Assembly: GCF_032884065.1 (NCBI RefSeq) | Contig: NC_088872.1 | Span: 310,001 to 374,000 of the forward strand | Length of the DNA: 64,000 nt | From: Artemia franciscana | Taxonomy: Eukaryota > Arthropoda > Branchiopoda > Anostraca > Artemiidae | Reading direction: 5' to 3' | Notes under the pieces: model-generated | What the model saw: the letters and a program-made list of their open reading frames with translations, nothing else | Told to the model about the DNA's origin: nothing | The model's database searches: none | Made by a program: the position numbers and the translations under genes | In this document: positions 8,201 through 56,073 of the stretch, piece by piece | Position numbering within the stretch: the first letter of the stretch is position 1 | Layout of the letters: each line of letters begins with the position of its first letter

Positions 8201-9946
8201 TTATATAAAATAAGAAAACTAGATTTTCTAAATGAAAGTAAGGAGCATCATTAAAACTTAAAACGAACAGAAATTACTCCGTACATGAAAGGGGCTTTTC
8301 CTCCTCAACGCCCCGCTCTTTACGCTAAAGTTTGACTCTTTCTCTTAACTCTATTTCTAAAACAGTAAGAAACTTTAGCGTAAAGAGCGGGGCGTTGAGG
8401 AGCAAAAGCCCCTTTCATATACGGAGTAATTTCTGTTCGTTTCAAGTTTTAATGATGATCCTTACTTTCATTTGAAATATCAGGTTTTTTTTTATTTAAT
8501 TTCTGAACGTTTTTGAATTAATGCATGTTTGATTTTGACTCTCCGCAAATAGATTATTAAAATGAAATCTGCATATTAATTCTGTTTTTGGATAAATGGC
8601 TTTCTCTTAATTTAGATAAGACAATTTTGATAAATAAAGGGTGAATAAGGAGGCCTAGTTTCTCCAATTTTTCGGTTACTTAAAAAGGCAACTAGAACTT
8701 TTAATTTTTAACCAACGTTTTTCTTAGTAAAAAATTTACGTAACTTAAGAATTAACTTACGTAACAAACTTTTATATTCTTATATTTTTATTATTTATAT
8801 GAGGGGGTTTGTACCCTCGTTCATACCTCGCTCTTTACACTAAATCGTAAGTTTTGTCCCAATTCTTTAAGAATGACCCCTGAATCAGAAAGGCCGTAGA
8901 ATAAATAGTTGAAATTACTAAAAATACTTTAGCATAAAGAGCGAGGTATTTATCTCCTCCTAAATACCTTGCTCTTTATGCTAAAATATTTTTAGAGCCC
9001 CTCATATGCATAATAATCTCTGTTCGTTTTAAGTTTCAATGCTACTACTTACTTTCAATTGAAAAAACTTTTTCATGTTTATTTTTTGAATTGAATTTTT
9101 TTAGTAATGCTAGAAAATCCTGCGCCTTTTCATTGAATTTCTCTTCCCTCATGACATATTCCTCCAAAGAAAGCTCCTCCCACATAGCCCCCTCCTCTCA
9201 ACCCCATACCCCGAACCAAAAAATCCTCCTGAAAACGTCTCTACACTTCCCAATAACTATTACTGTATGTAAACACTGGTCTAAGTTTGTAACTTGCAGC
9301 CCCTCCCCCAGGGACTGTAGGGGAGTAAGTCATTCCCAAAGACATAGTTCTTAAGGTTTTCGACTATGTGGAACCAAATGCATATTTCAAAATTTTGATC
9401 CGTTGACTCTGGGAAAAAAATGAGCGTGGGAGGGGCCTAGGTGCCCTCCAATTTTTTTGATCACTTAAAATGGGCATTAGAACTTTTCATTTCCGTTAGA
9501 ATGAGCCTTCTTGAGACATTCTAGGACCACTTGGTCGATACGATGACCCCTGGAAAAAAAAAAACAAAAAAAAAACAAACAAACAAACGCGTATCCGTGA
9601 TTTGTCTTCTGGCAAAAAATACAAAATTCCACATTTTTGTAGATAGGAGCTTGAAATTTTTGTTTTATGGTTCTCTGATACGCCGAATGCGATGGTGTGA
9701 TTTTCGTTAATATTCTATGACTTTTAGGGGGTGGTTTTCCCTATTTTCCAAAATAAGGCAAATTTTCTCTGGCTCGTAACTTTTGATGACAAAGACTAAA
9801 CTTGATAAAACTTATATATTTCGAAATCAGCATGAAAATTGTATTCTTTTGATGTATCTTTTAGTATCAAAATTCTGTTTGTTACAGTTTTGTTTGCTAT
9901 TGAGCCGGGTCGCTCCTTACCACAGTTCGTTACCACTAACTGTTTG
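8201..9946 (+). mobile_element. Helitron-like repeat, near full-length copy
   Basis: It begins with a diverged family start (TTATATAAAATAAG) and the long palindrome (about 8222-8475, inner arms CCCCGCTCTTTACGCTAAAG and its complement). A second perfect-looking hairpin lies at 8919-8996 (CTAAAAATACTTTAGC..., 8-nt loop TCTCCTCC). It ends with the 3' hairpin CAGTTCGTTACCACTAACTG and TTTGA. The family layout matches 48384-50088. It has no ORF with protein character, so it is non-autonomous. Confidence 0.8.
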
Positions 9947-10650
9947 ATTATTATCAAACTTCTATTCCTTAGAGTTTCAGCATCTATTGACCCTGGCTGC
10001 TCTTTAATTACTAACAATAAGATAGTATGAGACCCATTGGTAAAAATACTTGCATTAGAAGCAGTCGTTTGAGAGGTTTATTCTCTGTATTTGGTTATTT
10101 TCGCTTGTTTTTATTTTGTCTGTATTATTTAATTGTATTATTTAATACAGTTAAATGTTTCATCATTATGATTTCTCCTAGTCCAGATTACGTTTCTGAT
10201 CTTTCAATTAAATATAACTGTGGATGATTAGTTTTCGGGCCTAGATTAGTTTAAATCTAAAGGAATCTCGCCTTTTAATATTTTATAGAACCAACAATTA
10301 CTATACATGGACACACGAAATTTGTTCTTATAGGATCCTAAATAAATGTACAAATCAATTACGGTGTAAAGTACGGTGACGGATTAATATTCAACATTTA
10401 GTCAACATATTAAAGCGTTTCTTCACAGTCAGATTGAATTTTTATTTAATCTACAAGGGTCTATGCTTGAGATATTTTAGAGGGTGAACCTAAAGATATC
10501 CATTACTTTTGTTCATTTTAAAAAAGACTACGAACATATTGTACTAAATTTACGAGTTTTAGTTTTTATGGGACGTCAACGATTAGTAGTTCTTCTAGCT
10601 GTGTACTCAGAGTTAAGTGTCACGTCTGTGATTTATTATTAAGCTAAATC
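9947..10650. other. Intergenic between repeat and gene A 3' side
   Basis: Ordinary AT-rich sequence. The short plus-strand open stretch at 10027-10227 has no recognisable features and is not called. Confidence 0.5.
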
Positions 10651-12353: not shown

Positions 12354-15300
12354 GAGCAAGATTAATCTTCTTAAATGACAATAAAGAGAAACATTAAAAT
12401 TTAAACATGGACGTAATTATTTTGTAATTATAGGGTTACCTACTCTTCAGTTCCAAACTCTCTGCAACAAACTTCTGCAATAGTTTGTGCAATGCTCTAA
12501 TGCTTATGCGTTTTCAAAGGTAATTTTGCCGTCTAAAATTTTTTATTTAACTTTTTGTCGGTGTATGTTGGGAGAGACGACCAAAGGAAACAAAAAATTT
12601 ACAATATACATGGGCCCTTTTTTGCCTTGAAAATTAAGGATGTGAAACCGAAAGCAAGGAGCAACATTTAAACTTAAAATGAAGAGAACCTCGTCATATA
12701 AGGCATAACTTCTGTAGTTTAATATTGCTCCTTACTTTCAGTTGGAAAAAATGTTTTTTTTTTATTTAATAGAGTCAGAAATTATTTGCTTAGGAATCTC
12801 TCTGGATTTCTGGCCTGCACCATAACCCACCATTACTAAATACAATTATTCGTCACTAAACATAAGTTCACGAGAAATCAAGTAAAGAGAGCGGTATTAC
12901 AGACTAAGTTGCTTTTAGGAATGAAGCCGCCAATGTCTAGCTTTAATTTCTCTGAAAATGGGAAGTTAGATTTTAGATTATATAGTTATGGACATTGAAA
13001 TAAATTAACACGCGACCTGTTTTCAAAATAAAATACGCGTCCTGTTTTCTCTCAAAAATAAAAAAGTCATTATTTTTGAAGATAGGAGTCTGAAACCTTA
13101 TTCATAAGGTTTTCAGATACGCTGAATCTGACGGTGTGATTTTAATTTAGATCTGTTGATAGTTTTGGGGTATTTCTTCCTTTTTTAGAAACCAGGCAAT
13201 TTTTGTCAAGTTTTTAGACTTTAAATGAGTAAAACTAGTGTATTTTAATGTTCGGAAATCAGTTTAAAACCGATTTCTGTATCTATGAATTGTTATGAAA
13301 GTTTTTTTTCTAGAATATTGGTTACTATTGGGCCAGATTGCTCCTTAATTATAGTTCGTTACCGTCAACTATTTAAACAAGGAATAGAACGCACACACAT
13401 GCAGTGTAAAAAGACAAGAACAGTGTTTAAATTTCTAGTTGGAGATTTGTTAGTTGGAAAAGTAAAATTAAAATTTAGAAAGTTGAAAAAAAATTTACAA
13501 CTTCTAATGATGGTGAATCACCAATAATAAAAAATCGTACTAAAATTTACACCCCTTTCTGCTTAAAAAAACAATTTGTCATATCTTTTAATATTATATT
13601 ATTATAACAATATCTTTTAATATATTATTATATCTTTTCGGCTTAAGAAAAAACAATTTATAAGTAACGTTTATTATCATCAGCGTTTTTGTAGGTTCTT
13701 TTTTTGCTGTCGGTTGATTTGTAAATGAAAACTGAAGCAGTTAAAAGTTAGGTGGCAACTTTGTTTACGGGCAAATTCAGAAATTAATCAAGATCTTAGA
13801 CTATTGATCATGGTTATTCGAGAATCAGGTATCTACAACCCATGTTCATTGGTTATGTAACTGATTCCTTACTTTCATCAGAGCCTTGTCTTCTTTCTGC
13901 AAAATCATCAAATTGTAATGTTCCAAAGGCTCCTGCTTCTCTTGGTCTGGCAGCAGTGAAACTGACTAGGCACATGAAGAGGACGCAAATAACCTGAAAA
14001 GGAGTAATTTGATTATGTTATTCATTATTTTCAACATTCACGTTTTGTATACACATTATATAACACATTCAGGCGAAAATTAACCTCAAAGTAAATATAA
14101 TCAATTTTATGACGGTAGTGAATAAATTTTGATAATTTTGATAAGTTTTGATAATTTTATATTTATGAAATTAGAAAAGTGAAAAAATTTCAAATGTATT
14201 TTTTTTTGTATTTTGATTTCTCCCGTTTTATCGCAAAACTATATGTCACGAAATTTGTAACAGCAAAGAGGTCATAATGTGTCTTTAGCAGCTGGAGGCT
14301 TATTAATCAAGATTGGCAAGGAATGATTGCTTAGGAAATCGGAAGTCTCGTTAAACCTAAGAAATTACATCTTAGTTTTGGAATCGACCGTATCCAGGAT
14401 GGTCTTTGAGAGGGGGGCTTACAAAAGAATTTTGGGCGGGGGGATTTTACGAAAAAACTTTAAAACTTTGCTGAAATTCATTTTTGGTACGTTTTTTTGT
14501 CAGATAAATATATCGGGGGGGGGGGGGTATCAATGACCTTACCCCCTGGATACGGTCTTCAGCATACTACATAAGATGTATCTACGTGAGATACACCCAA
14601 AAAAATTCTGGTATGACCAATGTATACGAGCCAACATGGAATATGAGACAAGGAATTTGCAATTTTGCAGGAAACACTATATTATATGAGCAACAATATT
14701 ACAATAGTACAGGGGTTTAAATCCATTAAATATTTGGGATTCTGTTGAATTAGAATAATATTAATAAATTGAAGTGCATGAATCTACTATTTTTAGTAAA
14801 ATAGAAATTACTTGGATTTAAACTAATCTGAAAACCAATGGTTTTGTATAGTTTGTGAAGATGTTAGCCAATGCATTCTTTTGTAAAGTCGGTGGGTATC
14901 TGGGGCCTAAAAAACCTTTCTAGGCCCGTATTTTTGAAGATTCTATTACTGGGATGATATATCAACCATCAAAGGATCATAAATTTAACTTATGATATCC
15001 TTACATTAGGAGGACTTTATTGGGTTGATCCGTGATCAGCCCTACAACTTGGAAGCTGATGGGGGTGAAAGTTCCTGTTTCATCGTGGAAATATCACTTG
15101 ATATGCTGAATATTTGCATAATAATACTTTAGATGCACTAAACAAGCTCTTTTTGTGAAGGGTTGTACTGCAAAATTCAAATTGAATGAAAAAAATGTCT
15201 AATTTTTTGGGAACGGAGCGGAAATTGGCAAGTGTTTTAGCCTTGTACATAGTAATAATAACTTTGGGCTTGGTACTGAAAAAAAAATTTCAAAACCAAC

Positions 15301-19513: not shown

Positions 19514-21185
19514 TCAAACAGTTCGTGGTAACAAACTGTAGTCAGGGCAACCCGGCTCAATAGCAACCAAAACTCTAAAAAAGGGGATATTAATTCCAAT
19601 AGTTACATCAAAAGAATCGCATTTTCAGTCTGATTTTACATATATAAGTTTCATCAAGTTTAATCTTACCGATCAAAAGTTGCGAGCCTGAGAGAATTCG
19701 CCTTATCTTAGAAAACCGGGAGAAACGTCCCCTAAAAGTCATTGAATCTTAACAAAAATTTTACTATCAATCACATTACTATAAAATGTGAAATTTTGCA
19801 TATTTGCCAGAAGACAGATCACGGATTGATGTTTATTTGTCTTTTTTTTCCAAGGGTGATCATATTGACCCAGTGTTGCTACAATGTCGCGAGAGGGCTG
19901 ATTATAACGAAAATTAAGAGTTCTAGAGTTCTAGTGTTGAACATTTTGTTCAACATAGTCAAAAAGCTTAATAATTATGTCTTTCGAGACGAATTTATCC
20001 CTCACAGTCCCCAGGGGAGACTGTGGTATTAAAAGTTCTAATGCCCTTTATAAGTGACAAAAAACATTGGAGGGCACATAGGCCACCTCCCAAGCTCCTT
20101 TTTTCCCAAAGTCACCGGATTAAAATTCTGAGATAGCCATTTTGTTCAACATTGTCAATAACCAACATACTGAAATGCTTATTGGGAAGTGTACAGACGT
20201 TTTCAGAGGGACATTTTCGTGTTGAAGGGGGGGTGGTTGGGGAAAGGGACTACGTGGGGGGATCCATGGAGTAATTTATTATGAGGGAAGAGAATTTTCA
20301 TGAAGGGGCTGCAGAATTTTCTAGCATTATTAAAAAAAAAACAATGAGAAAATAAAAAATTAAAAAATTTCAGGTGGAAGTGAGAAGCAGAATTAAAATC
20401 TAGGAAGAACAGAAATTATTACGAAAATAAGAGGTTTGATATCCTCCAAAACACCTCGCTCTTTACGCTAATTTTTTTAAAGTATTTTCAATCATATATT
20501 TTACAACCCTTGTGATTCAGGGCTTATTCTTAAAGATTTGGGGAAAAGTTCAAGCTTTAGTGTAAAGAGCAAAATATTTACGGGGAGGCGAACCCTCTCA
20601 GATACATAATAAAAATCCCCAAATAAATAAGTTATTTACTTAAGTTACTTCGTAAGGTACTTATGTTTATTACTAGCAAAGATGTTTAAAAAAAATCTAG
20701 TTATATTTTTAAGTAACAAAAAATTGGAGGGCGACTAGGCCTCCTCTCCCATCCCTTTTTTTATCAAAATCATCCGATCAAAACTATGAAAAAGCCATGT
20801 AGCACAAAAATATAATATACTAAGTTTACTTTATTTATTGATTTGCGGTGAGTCAAAATCAAAACATGTATTAATTCAAAAACGTTCAGAAATTAAACAA
20901 AAAAATTTTTTTAGCTGCAAGTAAGGAGCGACATTAAAACTTAAAACGAATAGAAATTATTCCGTATATGAAAGGGGTTGTCCCCTCCTCAACGCCTCGC
21001 TCTTTCCGCTAAAGTTTTTATTGTTTTAAAAAGTAGAGTTCTGAGAGAGAGTCGAACTTTAGCGCAAAGAGCCAGGCTTTGAAGAGGGGACAACCCCTTT
21101 CATATACGGAATAATTTCTGTTCGTTTTAAGTTTTAATGTCGCTCCATACTTGCAGTTATATATAAACTTGTTTTTTTTATTTAA
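19514..21185 (-). mobile_element. Helitron-like repeat, full-length copy
   Basis: On the plus strand it starts TCAAACAGTTCGTGGTAAC (3' terminal hairpin reversed) and ends TTTTTTTATTTAA. The flanks are A at 19513 and T at 21186, so again it lies between A and T. The palindrome occupies about 20895-21185, with inner arms around CGCCTCGCTCTTTCCGCTAAAG and its worn complement. The second hairpin lies near 20440-20590. No coding capacity. Confidence 0.82.
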
Positions 21186-22945: not shown

Positions 22946-22980
22946 TATAAAGAATGAAACATATCAGAAGAAATTCAGAT
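22946..22980 (+). promoter_or_regulatory. Core promoter of gene B (TATA and initiator)
   Basis: CAGCAAATATAAAG carries TATAAAG at 22946-22952. The A of the initiator TCAGAT (22975-22980) is at 22977, 31 nt from the first T. The 47-nt leader to the ATG at 23024 is homologous to that of gene A. TATA context, spacing, initiator and leader are all conserved between the two genes. Confidence 0.78.
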
Positions 22981-23023
22981 TAAAACTGTTAACTGGTGAA
23001 AAAAGAAAACTTTAAATTATAGA

Positions 23024-30691
<7,668 letters not shown>

Positions 30692-35160: not shown

Positions 35161-36499
35161 TTTTTTTTTGCTATCGGTTAAACGCTGAAGTTGTCAGCCT
35201 ATCGAAGCGTTTAAAACGTCATGTTCAAAGAAGAACGCGATCAGTAATCAAATGATCAAAGGCTATTCCTCAGCGTTGAAAAAACAAAAATAACAAAAGA
35301 AGGAACTAAATTGACTTTGCAGCCAGTTGAACTTTATCCTTTTCAATCATAGACTTCGAGACGGATCAAGACTTGGAACAATATCTTATATAATCTAGTT
35401 GGTATTATAAAGCTATCCGTAACTTTTCAGGATCAACATACCATAGATGACACTCTATTAGTTATTACGAAACTGCCTCGTTGTTTTACGTTATCGTTTG
35501 TACCCATTGCGTAAACACTTAATTCTAGGTTACAGTGAGTTAGGGTAGGCTACACCAACTAGCAAAAGTTACAAACCCCTCTTCACTAAAGATGCTTGTA
35601 GCCTAACAGACGATTATTACTTACAAGTCCCATACATGTCTTACCACTGGAACCAACTCGGTCTTATCATCAAATACACTGGAAACAAATAATAGGTACA
35701 CCAAATAGCAAAATTTTAAAACTCCTCAATGCCGAAGATGATTATGAGCTAACAGCTGACCTTTCCTTAGCTTCCCCTCGTGGTTTCAGTGTGTACGCTA
35801 CTTCTGAAGTTGTCAACCCCTTAAAACTTTCAAACTAGTATATCTCATTTTTGTGTCGAATGTACTATGATGAGCTCATCAAGAGCTATCGATTGCCGAC
35901 GAAAAAAGAATTCTATTTGTCTTAGTTCAAAAGTTGATTTTTTTTTGCCGTAGGCCAACTTTCTAACGTCACCACTTAGAAAGGAGCAAAGGATAAGCTT
36001 CAATTTCTATAGCAATGACAAAACTTATAAAGTTTAAGAGGTACATCTGATAACATTTCTCTACCTCAATCCCAAGTCAAAAAAAAAATGATAAACCCAG
36101 CGAAAATCACGGCAGCACTTTCGGACCCCTGGGAAAATGCCGCTTTTTTGCTTCTGTAAATTTTTCTATTTGTCACTCAAAGAAGATATATTGGCTATGG
36201 GGCCAGGTAACTGCCACATAAACACTTATAAATTTTAGTCCATCTTCAATTTGAAAGTGGTGCCTGCCTGCTTGCCTGCTAGAACGGAGCTTTCCACTCG
36301 AAAGCAGAAAGATGGTTTGATGAAACGAAAGCTTGGCTGCACAACTTCAGATACTCCTCTCCGACATAGGCTATTTAACTCCACTTCACTTCATACACCA
36401 TAGGCTCTGGCTCGTGGACAAGCAAAAACCATCCTTTTTGGCCCCAGGCAAGAGTTCTGCGGAGCTTTCCAAAATGTAATGCCATATTCATCAATCCGG
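35161..36499. other. Intergenic, no gene seen
   Basis: Less AT-rich than average (for example 36120-36480), but with stops in all frames and no splice-bounded exon that I can support. It could be decayed retroelement 3' sequence. Confidence 0.4.
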
Positions 36500-36809: not shown

Positions 36810-39800
36810 TCAATCTATTTCAAAGGTATACCTACCGAGTAACCCCACACGCAGCTCGGTTTTGAATTGATTAATGGGCAATTCTTTGGTACTTAAAACA
36901 AGATTATTCCACAGTTTAGCCCCTTTATAAATAACTAAAAAAGAAGTCTTACTTGAAACTAGGCGAGGAACCTCAATATCTCCACTTGTTCGAGTTCTGT
37001 GACCATGAACATTAGATCTTTCCCGAAAAATTCCTGTAAAATATTCTGGAACACACCCATCATAATACTTATACATAAAAACCAGTGTATAAAAATCACG
37101 CAATCTGGCTGCAGGCACTCTATTAATCATACTGTAAATTGACCTAACCAAATCCCGGTTCCCTATTCCACAAATTGATCTGATGGCATTATTCTGCAGT
37201 ACGCGGATTGGACGAAGTATTGAGGGGAATGTCCCAAGCCATACTAACGAACAATACAAAATATACGGATGAATCAGAGAAAAATATAATAACCGTAAAA
37301 CATTTGAAGGAAAAAAGTGTTTTAACTTACGGATAATCCCTAAATTCCGCGATAGTACTCTACTTATAGCTTTTACATGATACTTAAATGATAAAATATC
37401 GTCAATAATAATCCCAAGGTACTTAACGCAACTTGACCCTTAATAATGCCCTTCGGTGAAGCTATTTCCTTAATCCAAGGATAATAATTGGGGAATCGTG
37501 AAAATATAACAAAATTTGACTTATTTATATTTAGGTCAAGCCGGCTTATCAAACAGTTCGTGGTAACGAACTGTAGTAAGGAGCGACCCGGCTCAATAGT
37601 AACCAAAACTCTAAAAAATGGAATTTTGATACCAATAGCTACATCAAAAGAATCGCATTTTAATGCTGGTTTTAAATATATAAGTTTCATCAAGTTTAGT
37701 CTTACCCATCAAAAGTTACGAGCCTGAGAAAATTTGCGTTATTTTAGAAAATAGGGGGAAACACCCCCTAAAAGTCATGGAATCTTAACGAAAATCACAC
37801 CATCAGATTCAGCGTATCAGAGAACCCTACTGTAGAAGTTTCGAGCTCCTATCTACAAAAATGTGGAATTTTGCATTTTTTGCCACAAGGCAGATCACGG
37901 ATGCGTGTTTATTTTTTTCTTTTTATTTTTTTGTTTTTTTTTTCTTTTTCCCAGGGGTGATCGTATCGACCCAGTTGTCCTAGAATGTTGCAAGAGGGCT
38001 CATTCTAACGGAAATGAAAAGTTCTAGTGCCCTTTCTAAGTGACTAAAAAAATTGGAGGGCACCTAGGCCCCCTCCCACGCTAATTATTTTACCAAAGTC
38101 AACGAATCAAAATTCTGAGATAGCCATTTTATTCAGCATAGTCGAAAAACCTTATAACTATGTCTTTGGGGACGACTTACTCCCCCACAGTCCCCGTGGG
38201 AGGGGCAACAAGTTACAAACTTTGACCAGTGCTTACATATAGTAATGGTTATTGGGAAGTGTACAGGCGTTTTCAGGAGGATTTTTTTTGGTTGGGGGAG
38301 GGGTTGAGAAGAGAGGGATATTCTGTGGGAACTTTTCATCGATAGTTTGTCATGGGGGAAGAAAATCTCCATGAAGGGAGCGCAGGATTTACTAGCATTA
38401 TTAAAAAAAAAAAACAATGAAAAAATAAATATGAAAAAGTTCTTTCAGCTGGAAGTAAGGAGCAGCATTAAAACTTAAAACAAACAGAAATTATTACCCA
38501 TTTGAGGGGCTCACCTCCTCCTAATACCTCGCTCTTTACGCTAAAGTATTTTTAGTAATTTCAACTATTTATTCTACGGCTTTTGTGATTCTGGGGTCAT
38601 TCTTAATGAATTGGGACAAAATTTAAGCTTTAGTGTTAAGAGCGAGGATCTGACAAGGGGGCGAACCCCCTCATATATGTAATAAAAATATGAGAATACA
38701 AAAGTTCTTTACGTAAGCTAATTTATAAGTTACGTAGATCTTTTACTAATAAAAATATTCGTAAAAAATTAAAAATTCTAGTTGCCTTTTTAATTAACCA
38801 AAAAATTGGAGGGCAACTAGGCTTCCTCCCCCGCTCTTTTTTTCTCAAAATCATTCGATCAAAATTATGAGAAAGCCATTTAGCCAAAAAAAAAAATGCA
38901 AATTTTGTTTTAATTATTCCTCTGCGGAGAGCCAAAATCAAAACATGCATTGATTCAAAAACGTCCAGAAATTAAATAAAAAAAAAGTTTTTTTAACTAA
39001 AAGTAAGGAGCGACATTAAAACTTAAAACGACCAGAAATTACTTCGTATATGAAAGAGGCTGCTTCCTCATCAACGCCTCGCTCTTTACGCTAAAGTTTG
39101 ACTCTTTCTCTCAATTCTTCTTTTTAAAACAGTAAAAAACTTTAGCGTAAAGAGCGGGGCGTTGATGAGGAAGCAGCCTCTTTCATATACGAAGTAATTT
39201 CTGGTCGTTTTAAGTTTTAATGTCGCTCCTTACTTTTAGTTAAAAAAAACTTGTTTTTTTTATTTAATCTTCAACCAAAGACATGTCATAGTCATTGCTT
39301 CATTAATTGTTGAAGTAAGTTGTTGTTCAGTTGAAGCAACACACATCAATGTCGCATCGTCAGCAAATAAGGGTGTAGTGATCCTGGATCCCGAAGGTGC
39401 AGGATCAACTAGATCCCTAATTCTAGAAGTAGTTGCAACAGCATTTGGCAGATCATTAATAAAAATCAAAAAAAGAGTAGGACCTAACACAGTGCCCTGG
39501 GGGATATCAAATTTAACAAGATTTTGACTTGAAGAAAATCCATTAATGTGAACATACTGCTCTCTATTTTTGAGGTAATCACAAAGCAAAGCCAAAGTAG
39601 CCCCTCTTAGTCCGTAAAATTCACATTTTCGAAGTAGTAATTGGTGGTCAACAGTGTAAAATGCCTTAATCAAATCAAGAAACAGACCAGCTACTCTAGG
39701 CTTATTGTCAAGAGCTCCATTGATTACCGAAGTTACATATGATAATGCCATCTTTGTGGTCCCCCTTCCTGAATCCAAATTGAATTGGATTTAACAGCTT

Positions 39801-41656
39801 ATGCAGTTTCAAATGATCATAAACTCTAGTGTTAATACACTTTTCTAGCACACGAGAAATAACAGGTAAGACCGAGATAGGCCGATAATTTCCAAGATCA
39901 TTTTTATTACCACCTTTATTATTACCGCCTTTTTTATTACCTAAGATTACAGGGGTAATATTAGCAATTTTCAAGCAATCAGGAAACGTTCCCCGTTTCA
40001 AGCACAAATTAATGAGAGAAGTAAGAACATCTGCAACTTAAGGAAACGCTATTTTTAACACCAGAAGATTGAGTGAATCGCTACCTGCCGATGTATTTTT
40101 CATCCCAAGAAAAATTTTCTCTACTTCATCACGAGAGAAGGGTTTCATATACATAGAAATATCAATTGGGGTCTTCATAAAAAAAACTCTAAGGAAGGAT
40201 CATCATCAGAAGATACAATACGGGAAGATAAATTTACGCCAATATTAGCAAAATATGTAGAAACCGCATCACATATCTCTTCTGGTTTCTTCGTTGGCAG
40301 GCCATTCTGCATTACTACTTCATCGGGAATAATAGAGTTTTCTGTCGATTTCACACTTTTAATTATTTTCCAAGTTTTTGCAGGGTTACCACAAGTCTCA
40401 GTTAATTTATTTATGACATATTTTTTTTTACATTTCTCAGTAATTTCTTCAGGGCATTCCTATAAATTTTATAAATTCTTAAGCAAATCGGATCATTCCC
40501 TTTATTTAAGGAATTCTTATAAAGTTGATCTCTTTTATTAATACAACGCAACAAGTTAGGTGACATCCATGGTTTCTTAGGATTATTTTTCCTTGATGGC
40601 GAACGAACCATTATACATGTTTTTGTCACTAGGCAAATCAATTTGTTAGAAAATCTTTGAAAACTCGTATTTATATGATCCATAAGATCGACAAAATTAT
40701 TCTAATCGACTTCTGCAATTGCCTGCTTAAATTTTTGAAGGTTACTCTGGCTAAACACATGCATTGGACTCTTAGGAATTATTGGTGCTGGCTTTTGGGG
40801 AATACAGAGATCAAATCTTGTTGAAATCCCAAAATGATCTGATACATCAGTAATAATAACTCTTGGAACTGAAAAAAACAAATTGAAAAAATATTGTCAA
40901 TAAGCTTAGATGATGAAGTGGTTACTCGTGTGCATATATTAACAGTTGGAAATAAACCATTGGACATACAAAGCTGCAAAAAATCCATAAAAACACTCGT
41001 ATCAAGCTCATGAAGATCAATATTAAAATCCCCGAGCATCATAAATGGATGTGAACCAGTTGCTATTTTCTCCAGCTGCTTATCCGGAAGATCCATAAAG
41101 ATGGGTATGGAACCAGAAGGCAGCCTATACAATATAATAACAAATGCATCTTTAGGTTTCAGCCTAAGCTGAAGAATAAATGGTTCAAAAACCATTTCCT
41201 GATATACTACTATGTCATTTCTTACCAAAACCTCAATATCACTTCGAATATATGCACCGTTTCCTCCATGTTGTCTAAACTGTCGATTCCTATTGTAAAA
41301 TTTTTACCCTGGAATATTTAAAAGAGCGGAGTTGTGGTCATTCATCCAGGTTTCAGTAAGACCGATAACCTGAAAAACCGAAAGATCACATAATTCATTT
41401 AAAAAATTAAACGCAGAATTTAGCCCCTTGGCAATTAATATGAAAACATTGAGGCCTCTCGCATCACCATACTCAGATTGAATTCCATCTTTAAACAAAT
41501 ATTTGGAACTAATAGAATTATAGTGTTCTGCTACCCCAATGTCATAACTCCGATGCAGCTGCTCCGTAAATACACCCTAAAATCTACATTCGAAGCTTCC
41601 AGAATATTAAGACGGCTAATACTTCGGGAACCACGATAATAATTATTCATTGTCAT
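36810..41656 (-). pseudogene. LINE ORF2 (endonuclease and reverse transcriptase), broken
   Basis: A start near 41656/41650 (MTMNNYYRGSRSISRLN) precedes the endonuclease: GLTETWMND (41.36 kb), LGDFNIDL (near 41.03 kb), TRVTTSSSKLIDNIF and ITDVSDHFGIS (near 40.85 kb, reached by a frameshift). RT parts are: PSRKNNPKKPWMSPNLL (40.6 kb), NYRPISVLPVISRVLEK (39.9 kb), QFGFRKG, LDLIKAFYTVDH (usual DLSKAFDTVDH, so Asp to Tyr), IPQGTVLGPTLFLIFINDLP, FADDAT (39.37 kb), then after the insertion SRLDLNINKSNFVIF and, in another frame, VKYLGIIIDDILSF running to the C-terminal part with the stop at 36810. Stops occur near 40038 and 40707. The protein would copy the element's RNA into DNA at the nick in the nucleus. 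Confidence 0.88.
37549..39267 (-). mobile_element. Helitron-like repeat inserted in LINE ORF2
   Basis: On the plus strand it starts TCAAACAGTTCGTGGTAACG and ends TTTTTTTTATTTAA, 1719 bp. The flanks are A (37548) and T (39268). Joining them gives TGG TTG AAG ATA AGC CGG on the minus strand, which restores the ORF2 frame from W-L-K-I to S-R-L-D-L-N exactly. The palindrome lies at about 38970-39267 and the second hairpin near 38500-38660. No target-site duplication beyond an ambiguous AT. Confidence 0.92.
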
Positions 41657-41979
41657 TAAATTTAAAAAAAAAACTCGGTACAGGGTTTCAAAAACAGACA
41701 CAAAAAAGAAAAACAAATTGAAAAACAAAAAAAATCCACTTCAAAATACTAATAAGAAAAAGAACAGGCGAAGAAAATATTGCATGTAACCCATCCATGT
41801 ATAAAGCTCAAGCTCCTAACGCAACGGCTAACAAATTAATAATAAACACAAACCCCGACATCATAAGATCACTAAAAAACTAACTTAACAAAACTTCAAT
41901 AAGACTTAATCAACCAAAATACACAAATTACGGTGCCAACAGACCCTTTGCATTATACCAAAGCACTTTAGTTACAGTG

Positions 41980-43603
41980 TTATTTTTTTACACAAATAAC
42001 AAGGGTTAAGGTAGGGGGTACCCAGCATTCCACTCCTTTATCGACTAGACATTTATGGATACCCAGGAGTTCCTTGCGCACAATACACGCACGAGGGGTA
42101 ACATCATCACCAATAAAAACATTCTTATAAATGCTGAACTGTTTCCCTTAAGTTGTTTCGCATTTTTCAAAAGAGAAAATCAAACCTGTTTATTGTCCAC
42201 TTTAATTTTAACAAACTTTTTAGAACACTGAACAATACTAAAAGACCACAAATTTCCACTATCCAATGACAATCCATGCACCAACACATCCGAAATCAGA
42301 GACTCGGCATCCTCGATAGGTACTTCATTTAAGCCCCAAAATAATAAGTTGCACATTTTATTGCGATTTTCTTCAATAAAAAATTGGTTGACTACTGAAT
42401 TCAGTTCCTCATTACATTTATTAATTAGCTCCGATTGGCCCTCCACAATATTATTCAAAACCAGAAGTTCAGGTTTAACTGTTGCAAGTTCATTCTCAAG
42501 CACATTATTTTTATTTTCTATCGATGTAACACGATTGGTCACTGCACTTATATCAGATTTTATCTCCAAGACATTATGTTGGAGTGCCTCAATGTTTGTA
42601 TTAAGGGACTGCACCATTTCCAGAATTTTAATAGTATTCTCAGCCAATTTATTCTCTGACAATCAGTGAGAACGCTACCGTCAGAATTATTCGTCGAATC
42701 AAACAGCTCGTGGTAACGAACTGTAGTAAGGAGCGACCCGGCTCAATAGTAATCGAAACTCAAAAAAATGGAGTTTTGATACCAATAGTTACATCAAAAG
42801 AATCGCATTTTAATGCTAATTTTAAATATATAAGTTTCATCAAGATTAGTCTTATTCATCAAAAGTTACGAGCCTGAGAAAATTTGCCTCATTTTAGAAA
42901 ATAGGGAGAAACACCCCCTAAAAATCACACGATCTTAACGAAAATCACACCATCAGATTCAGCGTATCAGAGAATCCTACTGTAGAAGTTTCAAGACCCT
43001 ATCTATAAAAATGTGGAATTTCGCATTTTTTGCCAGAAGACAAATCACGGATGCGTGTTTATTTGTTTTTTTTCCCAAGGGTGATCGTATTGACACAGTG
43101 GTCCTAGAATGTCGCGAAAAGGCTTATTCTAACGGAAATTCAAAGTTCTAGTGCCCTTTTCAAGTGACCAAAAAATTGGAGGGCACCTAGGCCCCCTCCC
43201 ACGCTCATTTTTTCCCCAAAGTCACCGGATCAAAATTCTGATATAGCCATTTTATTCACAATAGTCGAAAAACCTAATAACTATGTCTTTTGGGACGACT
43301 TACTCCCCTGCAGTCCCCATGGGAGGGGCTGCAATTCACAAACTGTTTTTTATTTACTTTTTATTTACAGTTTCTTACTGTTTTAAAAAGTAGAGTTAAG
43401 AGAAAGAGTCAAACTTTAGCGTAAAGAGCGGGGCTTTGAGGAGGAAAAGCCCCTTTCATATATGGAGTAATTTCGTTCGTTTTAAGTTTTAATGTTGCTC
43501 CTTACTTTCATTAAAAAACTTGTCTTTTTTTTGTTTAATTCATCACAGGGTCCAATAAGTCTGCTTCAATTCGGTTACGTTTACCGCTGCCTTTCTTTCC
43601 CAT
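41980..43603 (-). pseudogene. LINE ORF1 (coiled-coil, nucleic-acid-binding type), broken
   Basis: It starts at ATG 43603 with MGKKGSGKRNRIEADLLDPV, interrupted at 43538-42699 by a Helitron-like copy, then continues MNSTNNSDGSVLTD. A one-base frameshift near 42663 leads to LSENKLAENTIKILEM and a coiled coil (heptad-like Leu/Ile/Val over about 80 residues). An RRM-like MCNLLFWGLNEVPIEDAE follows. A second frameshift near 42150 reaches the C-terminal block VFIGDDVTPRACIVRKELLG, stop near 41980. This fits LINE ORF1p, which coats the RNA and chaperones the nucleic acid. Confidence 0.8.
42699..43538 (-). mobile_element. Helitron-like repeat inserted in LINE ORF1, internally deleted
   Basis: 840 bp, starting TCAAACAGCTCGTGGTAACG and ending TTTTTTTTGTTTAA on the plus strand. 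It sits between A (42698) and T (43539). Removing it joins GTG ATG AAT TCG ACG in frame. It keeps the 3' region and only one arm of the 5' palindrome (about 43375-43500); most of the middle of the family is gone. Confidence 0.9.
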
Positions 43604-43700
43604 AGTAATGGTATGAAAATAAGACTATTCGCCTACCTTTATATAAACTATATTTATGCTTACCCACGCTAGTTCCAGCGTGCAATGTACATATGCATTA

Positions 43701-48383: not shown

Positions 48384-50088
48384 TTAAATAAAAAAAGCTA
48401 GTTTCTTTTAGCTGAAAGTAAGGAGCAATATTAAAACTTAAAACGAACAGAAATTACTCGGTATATGAAATGGGTTGTCCCCTCTGCAATCCCTCGCTCT
48501 TTACGCTAAAGTTTTTAATTGTTTTAAAAAGTAGAACTGTGGCAAAGAGTTCAACTTTACGTAAAGAGCGAGGGATTGCGGAGAGGACAACCCATTTCAT
48601 ATACGGAGTAATTTCTGTTCGTTTTAAGTTTTAATGTCGCTCCTTACATTCAGTTAAAAAAAAATAGTTTTTTTTTTGTTTAATTTCTGAACGTTTTTGG
48701 ATTAATGCATGTTTGATTTTGGCTCTCCGCCCTTAAATTATTAAAATAAAATGTGCATATTAATTCTTTTTTTGGATAAATGGCTTTCTCTTAGTTTTGA
48801 TCATACGATTTTGAGAAATAAGGGGTTGGGAAGGAGGCCTAATTGCCCTACAATTTTTCGGTTACTTAAAAAGGCAAACAGAACTTTTAATTTTTAACGA
48901 ACGTTTTTATTACTAAGAAATATACGTAACTTAAGAATTAACTTACGTAACAAACTTTTATATTCTTATATTTTTATTATTTATATGAGGGTGTTTATCC
49001 CCTCGTTAATGCCTCGCTCTGTAGGCTAAATCTTAATTTTTGTCCAAATTCTTTAAGATTGACACCTAAATCAGAAAGGCCGTAGAATAAATAGTTGAAA
49101 TTACTAAAAATACTTTAGCATAAAGAGCGAGGTATTTATCTCCTCAAAAATACCTCGCTCTTTATGCTAAAGTATTTTTAGAACCCCTCATATGCGTAAT
49201 AATCTGTTCGTTTTAAGTTTTAATGCTACTCCTTACTTTCAATTGAAAAAACCTTTTCATGTTTATTTTTTCGTTTTTGTATAGTAATTCTAGAAAATTC
49301 CGCGCCCTTTTCATTGAATTTCTCTTCCCCCATGACATATTCCTCCAAGGAAAGATCCTCCCACATAGCCCCCTCCCCTCAAACTCGCCCCCAAACCCAA
49401 AAAAATCCCCCTGAAAACGTCTGTACACTTACCAATAACCATTACTGTATGTAAACACTGATCAAAGTTTGTAACTTGCAGCCCCTTCCCAAGGAACTAT
49501 GGGAGAGTAAGTCATCCCCAAAGAATGGTTATTATGGTTTTCGACTATGTGGAACAAAATGGATATATCGAAACTTTGATTCTTTGACTTTGGGAAAAAA
49601 ATGATAGTGGGAGGGGGCCTAGGTGCCCTTCAATTTTTTTAGTCATTTAAAAAGGGCACTATAACTTTTCATTTCCGTTATAATGAGCCCTCTTACAACA
49701 TTCTAGGAACACTTGGTCGATACTTTGACCCCTGGAGGAAAAACAAAACAAAAAAAACAAATAAACACGCACCCGTGATCTGTCTTCTGGCAAAAAAACC
49801 AAATTCCACATTTTTGTACATAGGAGCTTTGAATTTTTGTTATAGGGCTCTCTGATACGCTGAATACGATGATGTGATTTTTGTTAAGATTCTATGACTT
49901 TTAAGGGGTGCTTCCTCCTATTTTCCAAAATAAGGTAAATTTTCTCAGGCTCGTAACTTTTGATGACAAAGACTAAATTTGATAAAACTTATATATTGAA
50001 AATCAGTATGAAAACCCGATTTTTAGAGTTTCGTTTAGTATTGAGCCTGGTTGCTCCTTACTACACTTCGTTACCACGAACTGTTTGA
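48384..50088 (+). mobile_element. Helitron-like repeat, full-length copy
   Basis: It starts TTAAATAAAAAAAGCTAG and ends CCACGAACTGTTTGA, 1705 bp. The 5' palindrome is at 48384-48690, with tips AATCCCTCGCTCTTTACGC and its complement. The second hairpin is at 49106-49183. The preceding base is A; the following base is C (usually T), probably a point change. No ORF with protein character. Confidence 0.85.
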
Positions 50089-53622: not shown

Positions 53623-56073
53623 TTAAATAAAAAAAACTAGTTTTTTTAACTGAAAGTAAGGAGCGACATTAAAACTTAAAACGAACAGAAATTACTCCGT
53701 ATATGAAATGGGTTGTCCCCTCCGCAATCCCTCGCTCTTTGCGCTAAAGTTTTTAATTGTTTTAAAAAATAGAATTGCGGCAAAGAGTCAAACCTTAGCG
53801 CAAAGAGCGAGGGATTGCGGAGGGGACAACCCATTTCATATACGGAGTAATTTCTGTTCGTTTTAAGTTTTAATGTCACTCCTTACGTTCAGTTAAAAAA
53901 ACTAGTTTTTTTTTATTTAATTTCTGAACGTTTTTGAGTTAATGCATGTTTGATTTTGGCTCTCCGCCCATGAATTATTGAAATAAAATTTGTATTTTAA
54001 TTTTTTTTGGCTAAATGGCTTTCTCTTAGTTTTGATCAGACCATTTTGAGAAATAAGGGGTGGAGAAGGAGGCCTAGCTGCCCTCCAGTTTTTCGGTTAC
54101 TTAAAAGGCTACTAGAACTTTTAATTTTTAACGAACGTTTTTATTAGTAAAAAACATACGTAACTTAAAAATTAACTTACATAACGAACTTTTATATTCT
54201 TATATTTTTATTATGTGTACGAGGAGGTTTGTATCCTCGTTACTACCTCGCTCTTTACACTAAATCGTAAGTTTTGTCCCAATTCTTTAAGAATGACCCC
54301 TGAATCAAAAAGGCCGTAGAATAAATAGTTGAAATTACTAAAAATATTTTAGCATAAAGAGCGAGGTATTTATCTCCTCCTAAATACCTCGCTCTTTATG
54401 CTAAAGTATTTTTAGAACCCCTCATATGCGTAATAATCTCTGTTCGTTTTAAATTTAAATGCTATTCCTTACTTTCAATTGAAAAAACGTTTTCATGTTT
54501 ATTTTTTCATTGTTTTTTTATAGTAATGCTAGAAAATCCTGCGCCCTTTTCATTGAATTTTTCTTCCCCCATGACATATTCCTCCAAGGAAAGATCCTCC
54601 CACACAGCCCCCTCCCATCAACCTCACCCCCCAAACCAAAAAATTCCCCTGAAAACGTCTGTACAATTCCCAATAACCATTACTATATGTAAACACTGGT
54701 CAAAGTTTGTAACTTGCAGCCCCTCCCCCAGGGATTGTGGGGGAGTAAGTCATTCCCAAAGACATAGGTATTATGGTTTTCGACTATGCGGAACAAAATG
54801 GCTATCTCAAAATTTTAATCCGTTGACTTTTGGAAAAAAATTAGCGTGGGAGGGGGCCTAGGTGCCCTCTAATTTTTTTGATCACTTAAAAAGGGCACTA
54901 GAACTTTTCATTTCCATAAGAATGAGCCCTCTTGCGACACTCTAAGACCACTTGGTCGATACGATGACCCCTGGGGAAAAGAAAGAAAATAAAAACAAAC
55001 AAATAAACACGCACCCGTGATTTGTCTTCTGGCAAAAAAATACGAAATTCCACATTTGTTTAGATAGGAGCTTGAAATTTTTGCTATAGGGTTCTCTGAT
55101 ATGCCGAATGCGATGGTGTGATTTTCGTTAAGATTCTATGACATTTAAGGGATGTTTCCCCCTTTTTTCCAAAATAAGGCAAATTTTCTCAGGCTCTTAA
55201 CTTTTGATGACAAAGACTAAATTAATTGAAACTTATATATTTAGAATCAGCGTGAAAATTCAATTCTTTTGATGTATCTTTTAGCATCAAAATTTGCAGA
55301 AGTTAACTCCTTTGCAGAAGTTAGGCTCAAAATTGGAAAAGGATTTTGAAAACGTCTGTACACTTCCCAATAACCATTATTATATGTAAACACTGGTCGA
55401 AGTTTGTAACTTGCAGCCCCTCCCCTAGGGACTGTGGGGGAGTAATTCATCCCCAAAGACATAGTTATTATGATTTTCGACTATGTTGAACAAAATGGCT
55501 ATCTGAAAATTTTTATCCGTTGACTTTGGGATAAAAATGAGCGTGGGAGGGGGCCTAGATGCCCTCCAATTTTTTTGGTCACTTAAAAAGGGCACTAGAA
55601 CTTTTCATTTCCGTTATAATGAGCCCTCTTGCGACATTCTAGGACTACTTGGTCGATACGATGACCCCTGGGGAAAAGAAAAAAAACAAAAAAAAAACAA
55701 AACAAACAAATAAACACGCACCCGTGATTTGTCTTCTGGCAAAAAATACAAAATTCCACATTTTTGTAGATAGGAGCTTGAAACTGCTACAGTAGGGTTC
55801 TCTGATACGCTGAATCTGATGGTCTCATTTTCGTTAAGATCGTACGACTTTTAGGGGGTGTTTCCCCCTATTTTTCTAAATAAGGCAAATTTTCTCAGGC
55901 TCGTAACTTTTGATGGGTAAGACTAAACTTGATGAAACTTATATATTTAAAATCAGCATTAAAATGCGATTCTTTTAATGTAGCTATTGATATCAAAATT
56001 CAATTTTTTAGAGTTTTGGTTACTATTGAGCCGGATCACTCCTTACTACAGTTCGTTACCACGAACTGTTTGA
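53623..56073 (+). mobile_element. Helitron-like repeat, longest copy, with internal duplication
   Basis: 2451 bp. It starts TTAAATAAAAAAAACTAG; the 5' palindrome runs 53623-53925. A hairpin with 35-bp stem and 8-nt loop lies at 54338-54415. It ends CACGAACTGTTTGA. An internal part of about 690 bp is present twice (from near 54655 and from near 55349), which explains the extra length over other copies. It sits between A and T in the composite repeat, whose uninterrupted form is near 45745. No transposase is encoded. Confidence 0.9.

Follow-up and report, generated by a model that had tools for sequence, protein, structure and literature searches.

Two copies of an abundant non-coding element, probably Helitron-like, inserted base-exactly in a decayed LINE of Artemia franciscana

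A stretch of 64,000 nucleotides from the brine shrimp Artemia franciscana (C10:310001-374000, hereafter the window) contains a decayed copy of a long interspersed nuclear element (LINE) that is split by two copies, E1 and E2, of one non-coding element. The window was compared with the genome from which it comes (1.27 Gb in 6468 contigs; contigs are numbered with C and loci with L). According to the excerpts available from the genome description, rolling-circle transposons (Helitrons) make up 8.81% and LINEs 12.75% of this genome (PMC11492255). The LINE and the two element copies were located as follows:

36810..43681 (limits approximate), minus strand: host LINE copy, decayed and split by E1 and E2, recognised by RVT_1 matches and by sister copies
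37549..39267, plus strand: E1, element copy 1, 1719 nt, flanked by A at 37548 and T at 39268
42699..43538, plus strand: E2, element copy 2, an internally shorter version of 840 nt, flanked by A at 42698 and T at 43539

Both element copies start with TCAAACAG and finish with TTTAA, between a preceding A and a following T. An earlier reading made from the letters of the window (the sequence-only reading) had delimited both copies, and its coordinates were exact to the base. Within the host LINE, RVT_1 (PF00078) matched two pieces of open reading frame, at 39260-39778 (E 1.5e-12) and, at the cut-off, at 39708-40007. A weak Exo_endo_phos match below the cut-off was obtained at 40779-41228, and the domain search gave no LINE family for the stretches 36810-37259 and 42180-42662. 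When E1 was removed in silico, the LINE frame was open across site 1 as TCLWLKISRLDLNINK (WLKISRLDLN) with the join within the I codon, and removal of E2 left it open across site 2 as EADLLDPVMNSTNNSDG (DPVMNST) with the join within the N codon. The frames had been described as intact; they are open locally across both joins, but only locally, the LINE pieces of the window sitting in different frames owing to frameshifts outside the joins. Because E1 and E2 both have lengths divisible by three, in a LINE that is decayed and frameshifted, the open frames taken by themselves are weak evidence, and the joins might be an artefact of reading or assembly, or a chance agreement of frames in decayed DNA.

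Sister copies of the LINE gave an independent test of the joins. The queries were drawn from one side of each insertion, leaving the other side unassumed. For site 1 the best 40 of 481 candidates were taken, one of which was the window itself, and the other 39 were all read. For site 2 the best 40 of 162 candidates gave 41 rows and 36 sister copies were read, the remaining rows being the window, a second row of the copy in L066 and three rows that ended short of the join. In these samples, site 1 was uninterrupted as TTA|T in 39/39 sister copies, including L015, whose join is intact although 3 nt are missing a few bases to its left (projected gap -3). Site 2 was uninterrupted in 35 of the 36 sisters, 34 of them with gap 0; in the 35th, L084, the join is intact and an additional A stands three or four bases to its right; the 36th (L066/L079) was occupied. 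By motif search, the peptide of the window was recovered open across the join in 27 of the 39 sisters at site 1 and in 25 of the 36 at site 2; the remaining sisters gave no motif or had a stop nearby, causes which this search did not distinguish. The precise joins with no base added or lost, as read from the window, were thus borne out, and the recurrence of the same uninterrupted joins in the other genomic copies makes an artefact or a chance agreement of frames exceedingly improbable. Other bases at the joins of sister LINEs, which the sequence-only reading had named as evidence against itself, were not seen in any of the 39 copies at site 1. Of the two strings that it had predicted for the empty sites, GATGAATTCGAC occurred in 25 of the 36 sisters, whereas GAAGATAAGC occurred in 0/39 because the window flank carries a point difference; 36 of the 39 sisters carry GAAGATAAAC instead. 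E1 and E2 are copies of an abundant non-coding element nested in an older LINE and inserted base-exactly.

Most copies of this non-coding element are about 1.7 kb long; it starts with TC, and its ends read TCAAACAGTTCG...ATTTAA. The 5' TC was present in 43 of 47 listed 5' ends (E1 being listed twice), the exceptions being L047, L050 at 1607 and the window copies at 13376 and 48251. The 3' end ATTTAA carries no CTRR. The following structures were found in the two copies:

37553..37574, plus strand: 5' hairpin of E1 (element nt 5-26), 9-bp stem and 4-nt loop
42703..42724, plus strand: 5' hairpin of E2, in which a single-base difference breaks one pair (z -1.5, 14/200 shuffles as stable)
37575..37587, plus strand: 5' copy in E1 (nt 27-39) of the asymmetric inverted repeat AGTAAGGAGCGAC; 0/500 shuffles reach 13 nt
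39222..39234, minus strand: 3' copy of this repeat in E1, 33 nt from the 3' end
43494..43506, minus strand: 3' copy of this repeat in E2, 32 nt from the 3' end; 10 nt exact with the 5' copy, reached by 4/500 shuffles
38972..39267, plus strand: palindrome of about 297 bp with arms 90% alike, ending in the E1 3' terminus

A DNA fold of the first 42 nt of E1 gave -9.4 kcal/mol for the 5' hairpin (z -3.9), and 0/200 shuffles were as stable. AGTAAGGAGCGAC lies directly behind this hairpin and recurs inverted 32-35 nt from the 3' end. Sixteen copies were tested for the inverted repeat, which was exact over 13 nt in 10 and over 9-12 nt in 4, and was not found in 2 (L004 and window 19514). In three of the four cases with 9-12 nt (E2, window 56073 and L003), 4 to 14 of 500 shuffles reached the length of the match. 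The 3' palindrome was present in 19 of 21 copies tested, with arms 82-93% alike; it was flush with the 3' end in 16 and within 6 nt of it in 3, while it was shifted in L052 and absent from E2. The palindrome consists of the 3' terminus of the element twice, head to head; near element position 862 the 3' end recurs a third time, inverted and degenerate.

The target was determined from 29 copies with both ends read and from 12 later copies read for the left end, 10 of which were also read for the right end (no 3' end was found in L133 and L136). Excluded from these counts were L006, L042 and L044 (3' end broken or not found), L010 and L030 (3' end beyond the locus), the window copies 7173, 9947, 13376, 48251, 50884 and 63956 (ends altered or not checked), second copies in loci such as L041 at 451, L045 at 1006 and 1640, L050 at 1607 and L054 at 195, and the copies in L079, L107, L142 and L144. 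The left base was A in 31 of 41 copies, T in 5, G in 5 and C in none; L039 and L043, both with G on the left, share flanks, so that these are 40 events at most. Given the frequency of A before T in the window (0.29), 31 of 41 has a probability of about 1e-9. The right base was T in 39/39 (29/29 and 10/10) when L047 was counted after its 3' end had been put in register, and in 38/39 as scored. A is therefore strongly preferred before an apparently obligatory T, and A|T is a preference and no rule: of the A/T insertion proposed at first, the T stood throughout and the A did not.

The insertions without A on the left allowed the junction to be apportioned between element and target. L003 sits at T|T in another copy of its own family, for which 38 rows from 36 distinct places showed the empty site with gap 0. 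The G|T insertion of L039/L043 has a matching empty site, also with gap 0, inside the window:

35339..35454, plus strand: empty site for the G|T insertion of L039/L043, with G at 35398 and T at 35399

The element still ended AA|T in every one of the 8 rows whose left base was G or T. Since AA is kept whatever the left flank, the A adjoining the join belongs to the element. This bears on the possibility that E1 and E2 are cut-and-paste miniature inverted-repeat transposable elements (MITEs) mobilised by a DDE transposase that leaves a 2-bp AT (or TA) duplication, as the AT on both sides of each copy could be read. Such a duplication does not fit the constant AA|T in 8/8 rows nor the T|T and G|T empty sites with gap 0, which together exclude a 2-bp (AT) duplication, and the copies of the inverted repeat are set 26 and 32-35 nt in from the ends. 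The 2-bp form of this explanation is thus refuted and a 1-bp duplication of T is formally possible; as a whole, a cut-and-paste origin is very unlikely. At most a single T is duplicated on insertion, and a 1-bp duplication of it looks the same as none. The sequence-only reading had allowed for no duplication or an ambiguous AT: the absence of a duplication of at least 2 bp held, and the ambiguity was settled in that the A is the element's. A consistent duplication of more than 2 bp around other insertions was not seen at the T|T and G|T empty sites.

The same A|T was found occupied in two LINE copies. In the LINE copy of L066/L079, which accounts for the single occupied sister at site 2, a full-length element of 1737 nt lies at the exact A|T of site 2. 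Accordingly, L079:3066-4802 (C16) and window 42699 present two different element subfamilies at one LINE dinucleotide in two LINE copies. The L066/L079 element and E2 were 86.7% alike over the first 640 nt, and the LINE flanks 93.6% and 93.2% alike, while E2 was 89.6-91.7% alike to the young subfamily. In a FastTree phylogeny of 37 copies, the L066/L079 element fell into a clade (support 1.0) with window 9947 and 50088 and the copies in L030 and L045, and E2 lay outside the clade (support 0.998) that contains the L066/L079 element. The L066/L079 element and E2 are read as probably two independent insertions, at what looks like a preferred spot, the sole such case found; gene conversion is a less likely alternative. 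From 2 insertions in 82,195 LINE bases, a rough estimate made after the fact, about 0.004 coincidences would be expected at site 2 in 36 copies. The site-2 flank with the element start had 3 exact matches genome-wide, one of which was L066. As for site 2 as a hot spot, 8 further loci from the match list (2 exact, 6 with one mismatch) gave no LINE match. The right flank of L130 shares 8 letters with site 1 by chance.

Taken together, the exact ends, the lack of a duplication of at least 2 bp, the T on the right in every copy read, the preferred A on the left, and the hairpin and asymmetric inverted repeat at the ends suggest that E1 and E2 are probably non-autonomous Helitron-like rolling-circle elements. 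A HUH Rep-helicase (RepHel) supplied by another element would nick at the 5' TC end, a single strand would be displaced with the 3' structure serving as terminator, and the displaced strand would be joined into a target nick just 5' of T, preferably after A; both the rolling circle and the nature of the enzyme are inferred. Several observations weigh against this interpretation. No circular intermediate or transposition event was observed; shuffled sequences did as well as the short 3' hairpin of E1 (z -0.8), and that of E2 surpassed them only weakly (z -1.5); no RepHel element carrying the ends of the E1/E2 family was found in the genome searches; canonical Helitrons, tried as the partner on the basis of shared ends, had different ends in the two copies read; and the 5' repeat lies 26 nt in, behind the hairpin, whereas that of Helitron2 and HINE elements is described at 0-4 nt. 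The initial proposal of a Helitron-like rolling-circle element held for the exact ends, the absence of a duplication of at least 2 bp and the rolling-circle-like behaviour, though the family is no canonical Helitron, its 3' end being ATTTAA and not CTRR.

The family was compared with known systems on the basis of published descriptions, which were available in excerpts. It shares with Helitron2 the 5' T, the 5' hairpin, an asymmetric inverted repeat of 8-15 bp whose 3' copy lies inside the 3' end (by about 20-30 bp in Helitron2, 32-35 here) and the lack of a duplication, as in Helitron-1N1_CRe (Bao and Jurka 2013, PMC3627910). Helitron2 is characterised by hairpins at both ends; in the family studied the 5' hairpin is strong in E1 and weaker in E2, and the short 3' hairpin does not clearly exceed shuffles. 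The 5' repeat of Helitron2 is placed 0-2 bp from the end within the hairpin, and the Chlamydomonas target lies between TTTT and T/C instead of A (T, G)|T (PMC3627910). A 3' palindrome like that of about 297 bp is not mentioned in the excerpts of PMC3627910. FoHeli1 and FoHeli2 of Fusarium likewise have a TCA- start, a 5' hairpin, a 12-bp inverted repeat and an AT-rich 3' end (ATTTT, here ATTTAA), and insertion is reported between TNAT and T; they differ in being autonomous and about 5-6 kb long and in having an inverted repeat that overlaps the hairpins (PMC5148889).

HINE, DINE-1 and Helentron elements resemble the family in being non-coding, with subterminal inverted repeats of 11-15 bp, a 3' palindrome, empty sites without target modification and high copy number (PMC4067079; oyster Cg_HINE, PMC7492417). 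They are described with a TT or T-rich target, a palindrome of 5-10 bp and, commonly, central tandem repeats; in mite HINE elements the repeat stands 2-4 nt inside the 5' terminus and 38-60 bp inside the 3' terminus. In the family studied, the left base was T in only 5 of 41 copies. Canonical Helitrons (Helitron1, PMC5148889) share the 5' TC and, with most copies, insertion at A|T. Their 3' end is CTRR with a hairpin 10-12 nt before it, in contrast to ATTTAA, and their A/T insertion is strict, in contrast to A on the left in 31 of 41. The family shows the general rolling-circle features accessible to sequence comparison and possesses an asymmetric repeat. Because the published 5'-repeat spacing, the TT target and the CTRR end are all lacking, no named subgroup was assigned. 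Set apart by these descriptions, the family appears Helitron-like and nearest to Helitron2, and it fits no named subgroup exactly.

Another HUH single-strand element, Replitron-like or of the IS200/IS605-like Y1 type, or an element borne by a recombinase, could also be envisaged in place of a RepHel-driven one. A Y1-type mechanism would also agree with subterminal hairpins and with precise joining next to a fixed base, and no partner was found in the genome searches. Replitrons of algae and plants, however, are described with short direct terminal repeats and 2-8 bp duplications (PMC10741241, available in part), unlike the family studied, which has no such duplication at its empty sites and whose ends, TCAAAC and TTTAA, are by eye no direct repeats. 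We consider this group of explanations unlikely, and the Helitron-like reading is preferred.

A source of the enzyme was sought in the genome. No RepHel match was obtained in E1, E2 or the window. RepHel frames are abundant in the genome, a PF14214 search being judged from the best 150 of 7436 candidates. Two canonical Helitrons, L106:2524-8232 and L107:2483-8191, match each other at 99.8% over 5709 bp, and each has at its end a hairpin with a 10-bp stem plus CTAG. The open frame read in one of them has 1654 aa with PF14214, PIF1 and Pif1_2B, and its N-terminus includes a short amino-acid repeat (STPRs match). Many similar frames are among the best 150. A shorter relative of the canonical Helitron, with tandem repeats, is nested inside the studied element in an identical place in L041 and L053; the L041 insertion is clean at A|T, and that in L053 differs by one base. 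When the RepHel protein P0001 was compared by tblastn with the window and the fetched loci, the only good matches were RepHel tail fragments in L041 and L053, belonging to this nested relative; in addition its repeat-rich N-terminus was matched in L079, and the window gave none. P0001 had no match in viral_contigs.

DUF6570 marks a second type of protein (59 scored, 47 matches). On C4112, a 2446-aa open frame holds both DUF6570 and a C-terminal Exo_endo_phos domain. Judged from coordinates, seven loci (C4112, C11, three on C3, C16 and C116) have DUF6570 followed by an endonuclease match on the same strand, separated by about 4 kb, and at four further loci (C15, two on C19, and C20) the two are closer together. 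A fused endonuclease is called a hallmark of Helentrons in the excerpts of PMC5148889, and the DUF6570-endonuclease frame is a candidate Helentron-type protein; its link to the E1/E2 family is likewise a candidate. The L143 endonuclease had 0 matches among PDB sequences. Three places were tried for a partner and rejected: beside the DUF6570 frame on C6, in the stretches fetched, ends of the E1/E2 family were not found; the family copy upstream of the C4112 frame has the opposite orientation (surroundings partly read); and the head on C10 at 1765356, with 146 nt in common and T on the left, leads into an abundant repeat and not recognisably into the protein gene (surroundings partly read).

Tentatively, the family may represent a separate brine-shrimp lineage of Helitron-like elements with hybrid ends, although we regard this as doubtful. 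Such a lineage would combine a canonical-like 5' TC and A|T preference with a 5' hairpin and a displaced asymmetric inverted repeat. The palindrome of about 300 bp bearing the 3' terminus twice would be a very large terminator for the lineage's own RepHel, and its local target preference would be strong enough for one LINE dinucleotide to have been hit twice independently. No description of the structure of A. franciscana rolling-circle transposons was found in the literature searched, including the excerpts of PMC11492255, nor was a prior description of the E1/E2 family found in that literature, as far as its excerpts extend; the terminal sequences, searched as text, returned 0 papers. For annotation and for the search for a partner, the family provides what is needed: base-exact ends, numerous empty sites and a target rule that was measured. 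Its palindromic 3' end and displaced inverted repeat are relevant to how elements of this kind mark their termini. Should the partner prove canonical, cross-mobilisation between Helitron classes would be suggested.

The family is numerous: the first 352 bp had 1866 first-look candidates in the genome, and a 28-base junction pattern with at most 3 mismatches had 2666 genome matches, neither figure being a copy count. An exact 21-base terminal pattern had 0 matches in viral_contigs, and Rfam gave 0 matches on the window at the gathering threshold. Young copies were 96.5-98.7% alike over 640 nt. Besides E1 and E2, the following members of the family were located in the window:

8206..9947, minus strand: same-family copy, 3' end altered (TTTTA|TATAAC)
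19514..21185, plus strand: diverged same-family copy
48384..50088, minus strand: same-family copy, left flank G and right flank T
53623..56073, minus strand: same-family copy with an internal duplication (E1 positions 1-727, then 74-1719)

Elsewhere in the genome, the copy in L144 matches E1 over only the first ~146 nt of the element, which are followed by an abundant repeat. This repeat (L144:957-2348) has tandem units of about 240 bp and was about 98% alike at most of the 40 places scored. In the window itself, long AT-type microsatellites (families D1 and I11, with TA-rich frames) occupy positions 22946-23534 and 29956-30374.

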